A program made the translations under genes and the position numbers. Under the pieces are notes generated by a model. It saw nothing but the letters and a program-made list of their open reading frames with translations, did no database searches and was not told the origin of the DNA. Below, one piece after another: positions 5,656-56,099 of a stretch of DNA of 64,000 bases. The stretch covers positions 1-64,000 of the forward strand of contig JAKSKZ010000005.1 of assembly GCA_024401475.1 (NCBI GenBank), given 5' to 3'. The first letter of the stretch is position 1. Each line of letters begins with the position of its first letter. This DNA comes from Paludibacteraceae bacterium (GTDB lineage: Bacteria > Bacteroidota > Bacteroidia > Bacteroidales > Paludibacteraceae).

Positions 5656-6141
5656 TTATCTCTCTATCTCATCATAACTCGGAACCATATCCATGTTACG
5701 CATCTTCTCGGTTGGTGGGTAAGGGATATCCGATTTCAATAGTCGGATGTCATCTCCCGAAAGATGGTATATCTGTCGGAAATGGACGGAATCGACTAAC
5801 TGACTCCACGTTTTGCCTTCATACTCTTCCTTGTCCAAAATGAATACGGTAAGGGTGTCGGTTGGTTTGAGGAAATCTTCAGGATTATCATCAAAACCTA
5901 AAATGGGAAGACTCCAATTTGTTTCAAATCTTTTTTGATTATATAGGGTTGAATCTTCTTGCATTTCATTTTCTCGAACATATTGCTCTTTGTATTTAAT
6001 GTCCTTTCTATATAATATATAAAGTTCGTTTTCTGAATTATTACAGAAAAACAAAGAGTAATAAGGAGCTTCCATTGTGAGACAAGAAACTAAAAGTAAG
6101 GAAACTGATGCTATTAAAATGACTAATAATTTTTCTTTCAT
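5656..6141 (-). CDS. immunity-type lipoprotein, paralogue 1
   Basis: A lipoprotein of 161 residues: signal peptide with lipobox LLLVSC at residues 15-20, then the family signature FILDKEEYEGKTWSQLVDS, IYHLSGDDIRLL and YPPTEKMRNMDMVPSYDE at the C-terminus. Four intact paralogues (7165, 7797, 8381, 11594) and one fragment (2909) lie in the same island. Each intact copy follows a remnant of one conserved toxin C-terminus (ASYYGKRHFT-type). A membrane-anchored periplasmic immunity role is inferred from that order. No named Pfam family was recognised. The middle third is the variable part. Confidence 0.65.
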   Translation of the reverse strand: MKEKLLVILIASVSLLLVSCLTMEAPYYSLFFCNNSENELYILYRKDIKYKEQYVRENEMQEDSTLYNQKRFETNWSLPILGFDDNPEDFLKPTDTLTVFILDKEEYEGKTWSQLVDSVHFRQIYHLSGDDIRLLKSDIPYPPTEKMRNMDMVPSYDEIER

Positions 6142-6146
6142 ACCTA

Positions 6147-6308
6147 TTATTTTTTAGTTGGATATCTTTCTTCTATATTCTCACTCCATACCAAATCTCC
6201 ATATTTTTGCGTGAAATGTCTCTTACCATAATAACTTGCTTCCATTTCATACTGTAAGTCATCTATTGCTACTCTCGAAATTCTTTGTAAGTCATAAAAG
6301 CTTACCAT
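6147..6308 (-). pseudogene. toxin-tip C-terminal remnant
   Basis: An open frame of 53 codons whose second half reads YEMEASYYGKRHFTQKYGD and then ERYPTKK, matching the C-terminus at 8881-9033 (YEIEASYYGKRHFTEKYGND, EEKHPTK). The rest of the toxin is absent, replaced by the immunity gene at 6302, whose stop codon overlaps this ATG. It ends 5 bases before the lipoprotein gene at 6141. Confidence 0.65.
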
Positions 6309-6649
6309 ATAACGTCAACCTCCTTTGCGATGATTTGAATTTTGCCACATTCTAATATGACCTCATAGTAATTAATATGAGGAAGTTCAATTGGCCATGA
6401 TTTACAAAAATCCCTAATGAAATCATTCGCTTCCCTATCTCCTATAAAAATACCTAAAACTTTCTGATCTGAACTTCCTAATGCTGAATAGTCTGAACGC
6501 ATTCGATACAATCCCTTAAAAGTAACTATCATTTTGATAGAGTTTCTTTTAAGAAAGAGAACAATATCATCTGCCCTCCCTGGATTAGTTCTATCTATTT
6601 CAATATTTTCAATTATTGCATCACTCAAATCTATGTCGCTGATATTCAT
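6302..6649 (-). CDS. small cytoplasmic immunity-like protein A
   Basis: A protein of 115 residues from the Met at 6649, chosen over 6667 because MNISDIDLSDAIIENIEIDR then aligns end to end with the neighbour's MNFNDIYWHDAILKYVKINR. Shared features are a D-A-I/L start motif, a central FKGLYRM / FHDVYRV segment and a C-terminal NYYEVI / NYYEII followed by an IIAKEVDV / IVAKGFDF ending. No signal peptide is present. It pairs tandemly with 6681-7049. The function is unknown. Immunity is inferred from position among Rhs remnants and small size. Confidence 0.55.
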   Translation of the reverse strand: MNISDIDLSDAIIENIEIDRTNPGRADDIVLFLKRNSIKMIVTFKGLYRMRSDYSALGSSDQKVLGIFIGDREANDFIRDFCKSWPIELPHINYYEVILECGKIQIIAKEVDVIW

Positions 6650-6680
6650 AACTATTGTATTAAGCAAAAAATACTAAATT

Positions 6681-7049
6681 CTATAAACTTAATTTTTCGA
6701 AATCGAATCCTTTTGCCACAATTCCATATCTGCTCCCCGTGGAATTTGTAATTATTTCATAATAATTCAATGGGAAAATCCCTCTTTCCTCTATGCAGAG
6801 TTCTTTGTAAACATCTTGTACCATAACATTGCCATACTCCTCACAAATAGCATCGTATATCGTCTCGCATTCAACTATTACGGCAAAGTTCAAATTCATT
6901 TTAACACGATACACATCATGAAATACTAATCTTATTCTTTCCGTTTCAAACTCAATCTCCATTGTAACGGTATCTGAATTTTTCTCATTTCGATTGATCT
7001 TCACGTACTTTAGAATTGCATCGTGCCAATAAATATCATTAAAATTCAT
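6681..7049 (-). CDS. small cytoplasmic immunity-like protein B, paralogue of A
   Basis: A protein of 122 residues beginning MNFNDIYWHDAILKYVKINR, a divergent paralogue of 6302-6649 separated from it by 31 bp. The WHDA start and the NYYEII motif are the family marks. No signal peptide or membrane segment is seen, so any toxin it neutralises would act in the cytoplasm, unlike the lipoprotein paralogues around it. Divergent copies side by side are typical of poly-immunity arrays. The specific target is not known. Confidence 0.55.
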   Translation of the reverse strand: MNFNDIYWHDAILKYVKINRNEKNSDTVTMEIEFETERIRLVFHDVYRVKMNLNFAVIVECETIYDAICEEYGNVMVQDVYKELCIEERGIFPLNYYEIITNSTGSRYGIVAKGFDFEKLSL

Positions 7050-7057
7050 ATCTTTTT

Positions 7058-7135
7058 CTATTTTTTTCTAATATACGGCGTCAAAAATATGTTCTTTGCC
7101 TCCGTTAATGTGGAAATGGCTTCAAATTCATACCA
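7058..7135 (-). pseudogene. short toxin-tip remnant (WYEFEA type)
   Basis: The reverse strand reads WYEFEA, as in other remnants (WYEIEASYYGKRHF), and then diverges to a TAG at 7058-7060. The 60 bp downstream of the tip motif on the plus strand (7125-7186) repeats almost exactly at 7763-7819, covering the 3' end and flank of a lipoprotein gene. This indicates duplication of the lipoprotein/tip unit. Confidence 0.5.
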
Positions 7136-7164
7136 GATTATTGTCTTGGAATGTCATTAAAACT

Positions 7165-7659
7165 TTAATTCTTTACTGTCTCATCATAACTTGGCACCAT
7201 ATCCATGTTACGCATCTTCTCGCTGGGCGGGTAAGGAATCTCCCAACCTATTAGTCGAATATCATCACCTGATAGGTAATATATTTGCCGGAAATGGGCA
7301 GAATCTACTAATTGAGACCATGTCTTGCCTTCGTATTCCTCTTTGTCTAAAATAAAAATGGTAAGGGTGTCGGTTGGTTTGAGAAAATCTTCTGGCTGAT
7401 AGTCAAAACACCAAAGATTGGGCGCCCAATCTGGACACATTCTCTGACTATTATATAATGAAGAATCTTCCGATAATTTAATTTCCTTTGTATATTGACC
7501 ATCATATTCACAACTCCATTTATAAATAGCATACATTTCATTCTCTGTTTGATTATGCAAATGAATGCAATAAATAGGAGCCTCTGCGGTAATACATGAT
7601 TTTAATACAACAGAAAGTAATACTAACAAAGTGATATACAATAAATTCAAAACCTTCAT
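7165..7659 (-). CDS. immunity-type lipoprotein, paralogue 2
   Basis: A protein of 164 residues with signal peptide and lipobox (VVLKSC). The C-terminal half is nearly identical to paralogue 1 (FILDKEEYEGKTWSQLVDS, IYYLSGDDIRLIGWEIPYPP, MDMVPSYDET). The central region has a different sequence (DYQPEDFLKPTD retained, preceding ~50 residues divergent), which suggests diversifying specificity on a conserved scaffold. It lies between two tip remnants and is presumably co-transcribed with the rest of the minus-strand island. Confidence 0.65.
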   Translation of the reverse strand: MKVLNLLYITLLVLLSVVLKSCITAEAPIYCIHLHNQTENEMYAIYKWSCEYDGQYTKEIKLSEDSSLYNSQRMCPDWAPNLWCFDYQPEDFLKPTDTLTIFILDKEEYEGKTWSQLVDSAHFRQIYYLSGDDIRLIGWEIPYPPSEKMRNMDMVPSYDETVKN

Positions 7660-7665
7660 AACTAT

Positions 7666-7767
7666 AAATTATTTATTTGTGAGTAGGATGTTCTTCCTTC
7701 ATATTTATTTCCCTTACTGTCAAGAGAAATGTCTTTTCCCATAACAACTTGCTTTAAATTCATACCA
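7666..7767 (-). pseudogene. frameshifted toxin-tip remnant
   Basis: The reverse strand reads WYEFKASCYGKRHFS and then an in-frame TGA. Downstream, another frame restores EEHPTHK before the next lipoprotein gene, matching EEKHPTK of the intact tip end. It is a decayed copy of the conserved C-terminus preceding each lipoprotein paralogue. Confidence 0.6.
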
Positions 7768-7796
7768 GATTATTGTCTTGGAATGTCATTAAAACT

Positions 7797-8285
7797 TTAA
7801 TTCTTCATTGTCTCATCATAACTCGGCACCATATCCATGTTACGCATAGCTTCTGTAGGGGGGTAAGGCACATCAGAATCCAACTTTCGGATGTCATCCC
7901 CCGATAGATGATAGATCTGTTTGAAATGAGCGGAATCAGTTAATTGTGCCCATGACTTACTTTCATATTCTTTTTTGTCGAGGATGAAAACGGTTATCGT
8001 GTCAGTTCTCCTTGGAAATTTTTTAGGGTCAATATCACTGATGCCAACAAAGAAATCTTTACGATTAGCAGGTATATAAGCTATCTCATATATACTGGAG
8101 TCTTTATCCAATGTGTCAACAGATTGGAAGCGATACATATTACCCTCTATGCAGAGAGAGTAAATTGTGTCATTCGAATTATTTATTAATGTAATTTCAT
8201 AAGTATAATCCATACGGAAATCTTCACATGAACACATTAATGTCATTAGGATTCCTATCCAACATATTGTATATTTTTTTTTCAT
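7797..8285 (-). CDS. immunity-type lipoprotein, paralogue 3
   Basis: A protein of 162 residues with signal peptide and lipobox (LMCSC near residue 19). It carries the family C-terminus (FILDKKEYESKSWAQLTDS, IYHLSGDDIRKLDSDVPYPP, MDMVPSYDE) but a divergent N-terminal half (YTYEITLINNSNDTIYSLCI) and lacks the EAPxY motif after the lipobox. It is the most divergent of the five intact copies. A remnant tip precedes it (8293-8377). Confidence 0.65.
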   Translation of the reverse strand: MKKKYTICWIGILMTLMCSCEDFRMDYTYEITLINNSNDTIYSLCIEGNMYRFQSVDTLDKDSSIYEIAYIPANRKDFFVGISDIDPKKFPRRTDTITVFILDKKEYESKSWAQLTDSAHFKQIYHLSGDDIRKLDSDVPYPPTEAMRNMDMVPSYDETMKN

Positions 8286-8292
8286 GATTTTG

Positions 8293-8377
8293 TTATTTAG
8301 TTGGGTGGTAATATTCTATATTTTGAGTCCAAACTTTCATACTTTGGGTAAAAATAACTTGCTTCAATTGCATACCA
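8293..8377 (-). pseudogene. frameshifted toxin-tip remnant
   Basis: The reverse strand reads WYAIEASYF. After a frame change it reads VWTQNIEYYHPTK-stop, corresponding to the VWTNTIETKHPTK end of the tip at 12091. The remnant sits directly between two lipoprotein paralogues, so the toxin bodies have been deleted and the immunity genes kept. Confidence 0.6.
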
Positions 8378-8380
8378 TCC

Positions 8381-8875
8381 CTAATTCTTCACTGCCTCAT
8401 CATAACTTGGAACCATATCCATGTTACGCATCTTCTCGGTTGGTGGGTAAGGAATCTTCCAACCAATTAGTCGGATGTCATCACCTGACAGGTGATATAT
8501 CTGTCTAAAACAAAAGGTATCTACCAATTGCCCCCAAGTCTTACTTTCGTAATCTTCTTTACTAAGTATGAATACAGTGATTGTATCGGTGGACTTCAGG
8601 TAATCTTCAGGTTCCTCCTCCACTTCAAAAAAGGCATGGAAATATCCTACTTCAATTTTTACTTTTTTGTATAGAGACGAATCCTCTTCTAATCTGTCCT
8701 CCTTTATATACTTGTTACTATAGTAGGTGTCCCATCTACATAAAGCATATAGGTCTTCTTCTGTTTTGTTATCCAAATAAAGCCCATATAATGGGGGTTC
8801 CATCGAAATACATGAATTCGCAAAAATGGTCAACAATGCGAATATTACAACGGATAAACATTCTAATCTTTTCAT
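8381..8875 (-). CDS. immunity-type lipoprotein, paralogue 4
   Basis: A protein of 164 residues: signal peptide, lipobox IFANSC, EPPLYGLYLDNKTEEDLYAL, then FILSKEDYESKTWGQLVDT and the conserved IYHLSGDDIRLIGWKIPYPP and MDMVPSYDE end. It resembles paralogue 5 (11594) most in its N-terminal half (CRWDTY, YFHAFFEVEEEPEDYLKSTD). It follows the Rhs fragment/tip unit at 8881-9155 with 5 bp between stop and start. This is the clearest case of a truncated Rhs-tip followed by its lipoprotein. Confidence 0.65.
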   Translation of the reverse strand: MKRLECLSVVIFALLTIFANSCISMEPPLYGLYLDNKTEEDLYALCRWDTYYSNKYIKEDRLEEDSSLYKKVKIEVGYFHAFFEVEEEPEDYLKSTDTITVFILSKEDYESKTWGQLVDTFCFRQIYHLSGDDIRLIGWKIPYPPTEKMRNMDMVPSYDEAVKN

Positions 8876-8880
8876 ACTTG

Positions 8881-9155
8881 TTATTTTGTCGGATGTTTTT
8901 CTTCTATTGAATTAGTCCAAATATCATTTCCATATTTTTCTGTAAAATGTCTTTTGCCATAATAGCTTGCTTCAATTTCATACCATTTATTTTTATGGTT
9001 ATTGCTTTGAGATGCACTAATTAAACTTGGAATGCAGTAGCCGCGGGCGAAGCGGGGTTCCGTCTTCGCATCCTGCAGCCAGTTGTCCGCGCTGCGCCTC
9101 CTTCCGAATGGGTCGTAGGAGTAACGCTCCACCTTGCCGCTCGCCGTGTGCATCG
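8881..9155 (-). pseudogene. Rhs core fragment (copy c) fused to a toxin-tip C-terminus
   Basis: Rhs core part: MHTASGKVERYSYDPFGRRR, NWLQDAKTEPRFARGYC, ending at about 9033. After that comes SLISASQSNNHKNKWYEIEA, SYYGKRHFTEKYGND and EEKHPTK. The Rhs signature, pre-toxin region and most of the toxin are missing, so the two ends were joined by deletion. Its upstream edge joins a copied 5' end of a secreted-protein gene at 9156. The frame is open but a functional toxin is unlikely. Confidence 0.65.
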
Positions 9156-9229
9156 GATTCACCAACATTGGCTAATAGATTTACTGATGAACACAATAAA
9201 ACTACAATCGCTAAAATTTTCATCTTCAC
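9156..9229 (-). pseudogene. duplicated 5' end of the secreted immunity gene
   Basis: The first 24 codons (signal peptide through NVGES) and about 14 bp of upstream sequence match the start of 5010-5480. The match breaks at gaatc, where Rhs copy c begins in a different frame. The chimeric open frame of 70 codons carries a complete signal peptide followed by out-of-frame Rhs DNA, so any product would be nonsense after residue 25. Confidence 0.7.
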
Positions 9230-9245
9230 AATTTATGGCATTTTA

Positions 9246-9737
9246 TTACTCGTATTTTGCAAAAATCACCTCTTCATGACCAGTCCGTAGTCGATAAAGT
9301 ATGGATAGATATGAGTTCACCATGCCTAAATGAGCTCCCAAATCCTTGATTTTGTTTATATCCATACTAATATGAGAATCGCCGATTTTCCACACATACC
9401 AATCATTGTTATTTTCAGGATTTGTATAATCTCGTTTGCATTTAAACCAGACATTACTATAATCTCCAATTTCGTTGATATTACCGTATAATGTCCAAGC
9501 CTCCATTTTTATGCCAAATTTAGAGTCTCCATGCGTATAATAGTCAACGTTCCCGCTAACAATTTCTGCTAATGTTGGTTTCTCATTTAACTTGTAAATA
9601 TGTTTGAACACCCTCAACACATCACTATTTAATTGTGTCAGATCACTAGCGATATATTGCATATATCTTTTCTCCGTGTCGGAAATGACCACTTCAAACA
9701 CATCGCCTACCTTTGTTGATTTTACTCTTTTTATCAT
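9246..9737 (-). CDS. Imm26-like immunity protein
   Basis: A protein of 163 residues beginning MIKRVKSTKVGDVFEVVISD, with YMQYIASDLTQLNSDVLRVF. The KVGDVFEV beta-strand opening and overall length resemble the Imm26 family of polymorphic-toxin immunity proteins; this is from memory of the motif and not a search. It has no signal peptide, so it would be cytoplasmic. It is part of a run of three unrelated small genes (9246, 9785, 10582) with no toxin body between them, i.e. an immunity gene cluster downstream of Rhs copy d. Confidence 0.55.
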   Translation of the reverse strand: MIKRVKSTKVGDVFEVVISDTEKRYMQYIASDLTQLNSDVLRVFKHIYKLNEKPTLAEIVSGNVDYYTHGDSKFGIKMEAWTLYGNINEIGDYSNVWFKCKRDYTNPENNNDWYVWKIGDSHISMDINKIKDLGAHLGMVNSYLSILYRLRTGHEEVIFAKYE

Positions 9738-18729: not shown

Positions 18730-18929
18730 AGATTCGTATTGATGTCTCTACCTGAAATTTGAAAAACAGACCCATAATTTCTATCTCAAACAGCTACCTA
18801 ATCACTCATAAAAACAATGTATTCGCTTAGTCATGTCTGTAAATGTATGTTTATTATATAATTATACATCAAAATGCATTTTATATGAAAAATATCGTAT
18901 AAATATTTTGCTATATAAAAATATGTGCA

Positions 18930-18937
18930 TATATTTG
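18930..18937 (+). promoter_or_regulatory. -7 promoter element TATATTTG of the two-peptide unit (copy 1)
   Basis: TATATTTG with a TTTG at 18907-18910 (19 bp spacing), fitting the Bacteroidota -33/-7 layout. It ends 48 bp before the 28-codon gene. Copy 2 has the same element 49 bp before its gene. The 5' leader (18952-18985) is strongly conserved between copies (aatattaacYgaataaatatta). Confidence 0.6.
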
Positions 18938-18985
18938 CAATGTGAAAAGGAAATAATGAATATTAACTGAATAAATATTACGATT

Positions 18986-19072
18986 ATGACAATAGCTTAT
19001 ATCTTTTGTGCAGTGGTAGCCGTAGCAATGGCAGTAAAGGTTTGGAACGTTAAGAACGCTCTTGGTAAATAA
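18986..19072 (+). CDS. 28-residue membrane peptide, copy 1 of a duplicated unit
   Basis: The frame encodes a single hydrophobic helix with a cationic end: MTIAYIFCAVVAV, then AMAVKVWNVKNALGK. Copy 2 (55773-55859, minus strand) has exactly the same length and shares IFC and VAMAVKVWNVK-ALxK. The substitutions change the hydrophobic half most and keep the WNVK end, so protein-level selection is likely. An 11-codon frame and a terminator hairpin follow, also conserved. It may be a small membrane protein. I do not recognise a family. Confidence 0.7.
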   Translation: MTIAYIFCAVVAVAMAVKVWNVKNALGK

Positions 19073-19090
19073 CTTTTAAAGACAGCGATT

Positions 19091-19126
19091 ATGAAACGAC
19101 GACAGCAATTCAAACGCCGACTGTAG
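19091..19126 (+). CDS. 11-residue basic peptide (MKRRQQFKRRL), copy 1
   Basis: A frame of 11 codons starting 18 bp after the 28-codon gene. Copy 2 encodes MNRKQNFKCRL, also 11 codons, with matching residues at M1, R3, Q5, F7, K8, R10 and L11. The TAG stop overlaps the first bases of the terminator stem in both copies. Translation is not proved. The equal length and the conserved basic pattern support a real peptide. Confidence 0.5.
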   Translation: MKRRQQFKRRL

Positions 19127-19164
19127 CCTCGAAATCAATGAATTTGATTATCGAGGCTTTTTTT
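19125..19164 (+). terminator. intrinsic terminator of the two-peptide unit (copy 1)
   Basis: Stem AGCCTCGA / TCGAGGCT with an inner extension AATCAA / TTGATT and a TGAA-type loop, followed by seven T. The outer stem is identical in copy 2. Confidence 0.75.
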
Positions 19165-55676: not shown

Positions 55677-55716
55677 AAAAAGCCTCGATGATCAACTGTG
55701 TCGATATCGAGGCTAT
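55677..55716 (-). terminator. intrinsic terminator of the two-peptide unit (copy 2)
   Basis: On the minus strand AGCCTCGA...TCGAGGCT followed by TTTTTGTTTGTT. The outer stem equals that of copy 1, including its overlap with the TAG of the 11-codon frame. Confidence 0.75.
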
Positions 55717-55748
55717 AGTCGGCATTTAAAATTCTGCTTTCGATTCAT
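55713..55748 (-). CDS. 11-residue basic peptide (MNRKQNFKCRL), copy 2
   Basis: Eleven codons, starting 24 bp after the stop of the 28-codon gene on the same strand. Pairs with MKRRQQFKRRL of copy 1. Substitutions are mostly conservative (K/N, R/K, Q/N), and the length and stop/terminator overlap are the same. Confidence 0.5.
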   Translation of the reverse strand: MNRKQNFKCRL

Positions 55749-55772: not shown

Positions 55773-55859
55773 TTACTTACTGAGAGCGTCCTTGACGTTC
55801 CAAACCTTTACTGCCATTGCTACTGCAATCTCTGTGCAAAAAATAACTGCTGCTGCCAT
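55773..55859 (-). CDS. 28-residue membrane peptide, copy 2
   Basis: The frame encodes MAAAVIFCTEIAVAMAVKVW and then NVKDALSK: same length as copy 1 and identical in IFC, VAMAVKVWNVK and AL-K. The leader immediately upstream (ttaaccgaataaatattaag, then ATT before the ATG) matches that of copy 1. No gene follows on this strand until dut, 3.2 kb away, so the unit is not a leader of a downstream gene. Function unknown. Confidence 0.7.
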   Translation of the reverse strand: MAAAVIFCTEIAVAMAVKVWNVKDALSK

Positions 55860-55908
55860 AATCTTAATATTTATTCGGTTAATATTCGTTATTGTCTTTT
55901 AGATAGTA

Positions 55909-55916
55909 CAAATATA
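55909..55916 (-). promoter_or_regulatory. -7 promoter element TATATTTG of the two-peptide unit (copy 2)
   Basis: The reverse strand reads TATATTTG with a TTG 19 bp upstream (55936-55938). It is 49 bp before the gene, the same layout as copy 1. 55917-56099 is AT-rich with no gene seen. Confidence 0.6.
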
Positions 55917-56099
55917 CGTTGTTTTTCTTATAATCCAATAAAAATGCGTACTTTTTTGCAAAAAGATTATAAAATATATTATACAATAGAATGGATATAC
56001 AATTTATATACAAATAGTAAATGTTTCGTCAAAACTAAATGACATCGGTGCAATATGAACAATTAAAACAAATTCTATTACATATTAAAACAAATTCAC

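Follow-up and report, generated by a model that had tools for sequence, protein, structure and literature searches.

Two short units in the window, the 64,000-nt stretch of DNA analyzed here, appear on comparative evidence to belong to a real and previously unnamed family of miniature units in gut-type Bacteroidales, in which very short membrane peptides, one to three per unit, are encoded together with a tiny, usually charged peptide. The search for further homologues proposed in the preliminary description yielded about 40 units in total from three genera of the Paludibacteraceae, the window copies being two of them, and we regard the existence of a family of translated micro-operons as highly probable. 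The explanation that we favor as a whole, at a probability of about 0.5, is that of a stand-alone micro-operon for membrane microproteins with a translated end-cap frame. A sigma-ABfr-type promoter would drive a short mRNA (~230 nt for the window copies) ended by an intrinsic terminator. Comparative sequence analysis shows that the unit encodes single-pass membrane microproteins of 23–38 aa, either one alone or two or three paralogues, each under purifying selection, and next a terminal frame of 8–19 codons whose stop falls at the 5′ foot of the stem of that terminator.

Layout and distribution of the units

Copy 1 (18930–19164, +) and copy 2 (55916–55677, −) have the same succession of promoter, leader, hydrophobic frame (28 aa), basic frame (11 aa) and terminator, and in both the terminator stem holds the last stop. 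The preliminary description had reported two units with the same parts in the same order, and each part was found at the position given here, together with a third unit in the host genome:

18907–18937, +: Bacteroidetes-type promoter of copy 1 (TTTG at 18907–18910, a 19-nt spacer, TATATTTG at 18930–18937)
18938–18985, +: conserved 5′ leader of copy 1, 3′ end GAATATTAACTGAATAAATATTACGATT, with A at −3 and −6
18986–19072, +: membrane-peptide frame of copy 1, 28 aa, MTIAYIFCAVVAVAMAVKVWNVKNALGK; pN/pS 0.22 in the genus
19091–19126, +: terminal charged frame of copy 1, 11 aa, MKRRQQFKRRL, stop TAG; three of its four Arg codons are CGA
19125–19164, +: intrinsic terminator of copy 1, stem AGCCTCGA/TCGAGGCT beginning at 19125 within the TAG, T-run to 19164
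55909–55939, −: promoter of copy 2, TTG, then TATATTTG at 55916–55909
55860–55908, −: leader of copy 2, 3′ end GAATATTAACCGAATAAATATTAAGATT
55773–55859, −: membrane-peptide frame of copy 2, 28 aa, MAAAVIFCTEIAVAMAVKVWNVKDALSK; the identical protein occurs in genome G003
55713–55748, −: terminal charged frame of copy 2, 11 aa, MNRKQNFKCRL, stop TAG
55677–55714, −: intrinsic terminator of copy 2, stem AGCCTCGAT from 55714, overlapping the TAG
C17:27766–27423, −: third unit of the host genome, with a tandem series of three 28-codon frames (MATVIIFCSVVAVSMGVRVWSVKDALGK plus two close copies of it) and a leader before each, then MDQQIEVNN and the same GCCTCGA terminator

In a whole-genome search, copy 2 aligned with 233 of the 235 bases of copy 1 (76% identity), and the E value of 1e-42 therefore excludes chance as the source of the likeness. 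From TATATTTG to the start of the membrane frame there are 48 nt in copy 1 (ATG at 18986) and 49 nt in copy 2. Nearly all units carry TTTG or TTG, a gap of about 19–21 nt, and TAnnTTTG 54–71 nt before the first start, the element lying at −119 in genome G361. TTTG/TAnnTTTG is the sigma-ABfr consensus (PMC7366714). The leader pattern occurred at nine sites in the four genomes of the window's genus, eight of the nine ahead of family frames; a reading of it as a generic strong translation-start motif was rejected, as in this genus it marks mostly family frames, though outside this genus unrelated genes can be preceded by a looser form of it.

Among orthologues of copy 1, identity was 0.84 in the promoter, 0.88 in the leader, 0.90 in the membrane frame, 0.56 in the spacer, 0.81 in the tail and 0.86 in the terminator. 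It was 0.28 just downstream and 0.35 far upstream (flank range 0.28–0.41), and intermediate (0.69) from −160 to −80. Separately, the hexamers TGTATA, TATACA, TGCATA and TATGCA were enriched in the ~200 nt upstream of the units (60 in 19 units, against 14.4 expected), their density upstream of the promoters being ~4–6 times that of other intergenic regions at the same loci (e.g., window 56100–55920 on the minus strand, and loci L094, L095, L098, and L101); they are possibly an array of regulator sites.

Units were present in all four genomes analyzed from the window's genus, with twelve membrane frames of 28 aa each; the four are Paludibacteraceae MAGs, and their sources are yak rumen, water-buffalo reticulum and horse feces. 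When 358 genomes from the taxonomic family were searched by profile, two more genera, g27 and g19, were added; their units have the same architecture, the membrane frames (23–38 aa) numbering one, two or three per unit, at roughly 27–48% peptide identity. Three successive profiles, run against 393 sampled genomes from 207 genera of the order, produced no match below E = 0.01 outside the Paludibacteraceae; as the profile has 28 positions, this absence is weak evidence, and the narrow distribution may partly be an effect of profile sensitivity. Weak profile matches in other families of the order (E 0.01–0.1) were discarded, the architecture being absent from every locus fetched. A script that used architecture only (a TAnnTTTG promoter, a hydrophobic mini-frame, and a terminal mini-frame stopping at a terminator stem) returned family members only from 831 kb of fetched DNA, a set largely chosen by profile matches, such that the scan gauges the specificity of the layout and not its reach.

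The neighbors of the units are largely kept within each genus and differ between genera, from which we concluded that the units are vertically inherited, act independently and have no regulated downstream gene. As observations on individual genera, the g19 units (L099–L105) lie directly upstream of a same-orientation gene for a DksA/TraR-like zinc-finger protein, and the g27 units L094 and L096–L098 adjoin a TrkA-like gene, both genes having been identified by eye.

The membrane peptides

The small membrane peptide anticipated in the preliminary description showed the mark of purifying selection, with pN/pS values of 0.22 for the genus and 0.31 across all groups (Fisher p = 1.6e-15, non-overlapping pairs). 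Nor were substitutions spread evenly over codon positions: differences numbered 49/26/91 at the first, second and third positions (third-position excess, p = 1.1e-8). On these comparisons the membrane frame reads clearly as coding and under purifying selection, and its codon usage resembles that of ordinary genes (0.72–0.82 vs. 0.81).

Ten representatives, assessed by hydropathy only, each have a single hydrophobic segment capable of spanning a membrane (best 15-mer Kyte-Doolittle value 2.2–2.9), with the first Lys or Arg at residue 13–18, after the hydrophobic core; in the copy 1 peptide these values are 2.7 and residue 18 (Lys). The peptides share a plan of a hydrophobic stretch, then K/R-V-W/Y/L, then a short polar tail. 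Hydropathy and the position of the Lys/Arg residues together suggest an N-out/C-in topology, and the constraint on the putative cytosolic part, K/R-V-W/Y-x-V-K-D-x-L, points to a protein partner.

KdpF, CydX and AcrZ are small single-pass membrane microproteins tied to a known complex, often within its operon. Like them, the family peptides combine a length in the range of ~25–50 aa with a single hydrophobic helix, a short polar end and strong sequence constraint; unlike them, the family units stand alone, carry one to three paralogues and have a charged terminal frame that stops at the terminator, and no sequence relation was detected. In the explanation that we favor, the peptides would sit N-out/C-in in the inner membrane, where the conserved tail would dock on a membrane protein or complex and modulate it or help its assembly, a role like that of KdpF, CydX or AcrZ, though exercised from transcripts of their own. 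The peptides probably modulate a membrane complex or belong to one as accessory subunits; for the role of membrane modulator we would put the odds somewhat short of even. Because the neighbors differ between genera and no partner gene is present, any target complex that we might name is a guess.

The main rival, which we consider unlikely, is a type I toxin-antitoxin system, in which the membrane peptide would be a growth-arresting toxin that an antisense RNA keeps in check, with the tandem copies corresponding to Ldr, Ibs or ZorO arrays. The units fit the search criteria for such toxins, namely size, a single hydrophobic stretch, a positive (here putatively cytosolic) C-terminus, tandem duplication and stand-alone genes, and share with ZorO, Ldr and Ibs their small size, hydrophobicity, duplication, stand-alone setting and C-terminal positive charge (PMC8309996). 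Putative type I pairs have also been reported from Bacteroides thetaiotaomicron, together with sORF candidates, the pairs being cis-antisense pairs of sORF transcripts (PMC7366714); these come from the same phylum and have the same promoter consensus and very short frames, but in the family units no antisense partner was seen. A search confined to the units found no conserved antisense −7 element (CAAAnnTA) within them, which leaves room for a trans-encoded RNA. By these searches and predictions the family would differ from ZorO, Ldr and Ibs, as no conserved antisense promoter was seen and no strong occluding 5′ structure is predicted, the predicted mean pairing probabilities around the membrane-frame starts being 0.41–0.58. 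The leader has A at −3 and −6, which favors initiation in Bacteroidetes (PMC6847099). Further points against a toxin are the several intact paralogues per mRNA, all under purifying selection, and the vertical inheritance of the units at fixed places; moreover, a toxin would leave the second frame at the terminator unexplained.

The terminal frame and the terminator foot

The second frame reported in the preliminary description is open in nearly all relatives, and two of its attributes held in part. The exact frame lengths stood for the membrane frame genus-wide (28 aa) and for the second frame in both window copies (11 codons), but in relatives the latter spans 8–19 codons; and the second peptide, basic in the window copies, is acidic in a class of units found in two genera (e.g., MDQQIEVNN and MDQIENDN), so that basic charge is not a family trait. 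Basic tails have a net charge of +3 to +8 and acidic tails −1 to −3. Both classes were found in g27 as well as in the window's genus, and they coexist within single genomes, namely several g27 genomes and the window's own. Near-neutral tails were seen in g19 (MGRQEKSDRP, MRPQDNSDRIQS) and in genome G342 (MEKQKDDRM). Three tandem membrane frames occur both in the acidic-tail unit L107, the third unit of the window's own genome (G000:C17:27766–27423), and in the g27 unit L193 (G352:C130, ~7337–7700), whose sequences are quite different, which suggests that tandem expansion of the acidic-tail class arose independently in the two.

The comparison of synonymous and non-synonymous change gave a strong result for the membrane frame alone: pN/pS for the terminal frame was 0.91 in the genus and 0.52 overall, and because this signal is weak the terminal-frame peptide may be incidental. 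The terminal frame changes in length only by steps of three nucleotides (lengths 10, 11, and 13; 15, 17, and 18; 10 and 12), and the spacer ahead of it varies freely (17, 18, 20, and 24 nt). The acidic tail keeps D/E/N across genera with synonymous changes (MDQQSDNDN vs. MDQIENDN). Arg codons in the tail are CGA or CGG in 19/20 cases in the genus (background 21%) and in 27/36 in g27 (background 14%), counts that take in related sequences, such that binomial p-values overstate their significance. Basic tail frames have a low codon-usage value (0.52–0.62), and a CGACGA core recurs among basic-tail units. That the membrane frame and the terminal frame are translationally coupled is plausible.

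Apart from that of G361, all units measured end their terminal frame at the 5′ foot of the stem, at distances of −2 to +1 (two at −8), and this position holds though the terminator sequences differ (AGCCTCGA, AGCCTCAATG, AATCCTGATTC). Of 27 ordinary long frames that have a terminator no more than 120 nt away, none stopped on the foot or came closer than 4. Shuffling of interval and frame gave a product of 7e-6 over five lineages, a value that is indicative only, as the control was small and the lineages share ancestry. The exceptional unit of G361, which is diverged and single-copy with a 30-aa frame, has merely a five-codon frame that ends ~40 nt before the hairpin.

A second rival, which strikes us as improbable, holds that the transcript is mainly a dual-function or regulatory RNA, its 3′ part (CGACGACAG through to the terminator) being active and the peptides secondary. 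Among the seven genomes of one g27 subclade, tail DNA is near-invariant, with 2/60 variable sites, both at third positions, vs. 20/168 in the membrane frames; the repeated CGACGA core and the lack of residue-level constraint on the tail within the genus likewise speak for an RNA. Set against these are the clear coding character of the membrane frames, the absence of an Rfam match, and three features of the tail itself: indels in threes, a stop that stays on the stem foot, and D/E/N residues kept across genera through synonymous changes.

Under the favored explanation, the terminal frame would bring ribosomes right up to where the mRNA ends and so protect or time its 3′ end, and the class-specific basic and acidic tails would also yield a charged soluble micro-peptide; the tail may serve as an end cap, supply a charged micro-peptide, or do both. 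A bolder version, which we put forward as a long shot, is that the family represents an expression unit of a new kind, in which the terminal mini-frame, with an enrichment of rare CGA/CGG codons in its basic form, would bring ribosomes onto the hairpin foot and set 3′-end formation or stability, and in which the coexisting basic and acidic tails would be complementary charged peptides acting with the membrane peptides. Bacteroidetes lack Shine-Dalgarno initiation, and the rule that the stop falls on the terminator foot, combined with the rare-Arg-codon bias, makes a sharp prediction on translation at the 3′ ends of their mRNAs. The division into basic and acidic tails gives a handle on function.

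Known families and remaining alternatives

The earlier statement that no described family has this layout agrees with our searches. Nothing in Pfam, NCBIfam, PHROGs, PADLOC or Rfam scored above the curated cut-off for the family, PDB, IMG/VR, plasmids and phages held no relative of it, and we found no published description of the layout in the open-access literature. An Rfam match to mir-297 (E 0.26) and a PDB match to FieF (E ~1) were dismissed as chance, and carriage by a mobile element or phage was rejected on the lack of an IMG/VR, plasmid or phage match and on the stable synteny. Short genes escape annotation, and this family came to light through two copies in one window; its layout is fixed and unusual, conserved across three genera, and absent from standard databases.

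We consider it very improbable that the units form an exported leaderless multi-peptide system, bacteriocin-like or phenol-soluble-modulin-like, acting outside the cell. Tandem paralogues of 23–38 aa without leader sequences would suit such a system, but the surroundings of the units show no recurrent transporter or immunity gene, the peptides are TM-like and not amphipathic throughout, and the units are low in copy and vertically inherited. An attenuator or leader peptide steering a downstream gene via the terminator, for which an Arg-rich tail with CGA codons immediately before that terminator might speak, is scarcely credible and was rejected on synteny, with no regulated gene directly downstream. 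In agreement with the preliminary description, the unit is not a leader of another gene: orthologous units precede unrelated or opposite-strand genes, copy 2 has no same-strand gene downstream for 3.4 kb (more than 3 kb had been claimed), and the acidic class lacks Arg codons.

Elsewhere in the window, a minus-strand run at 5656–9737 of ~8 frames of similar length (95–164 aa) has the look of a tandem gene array.
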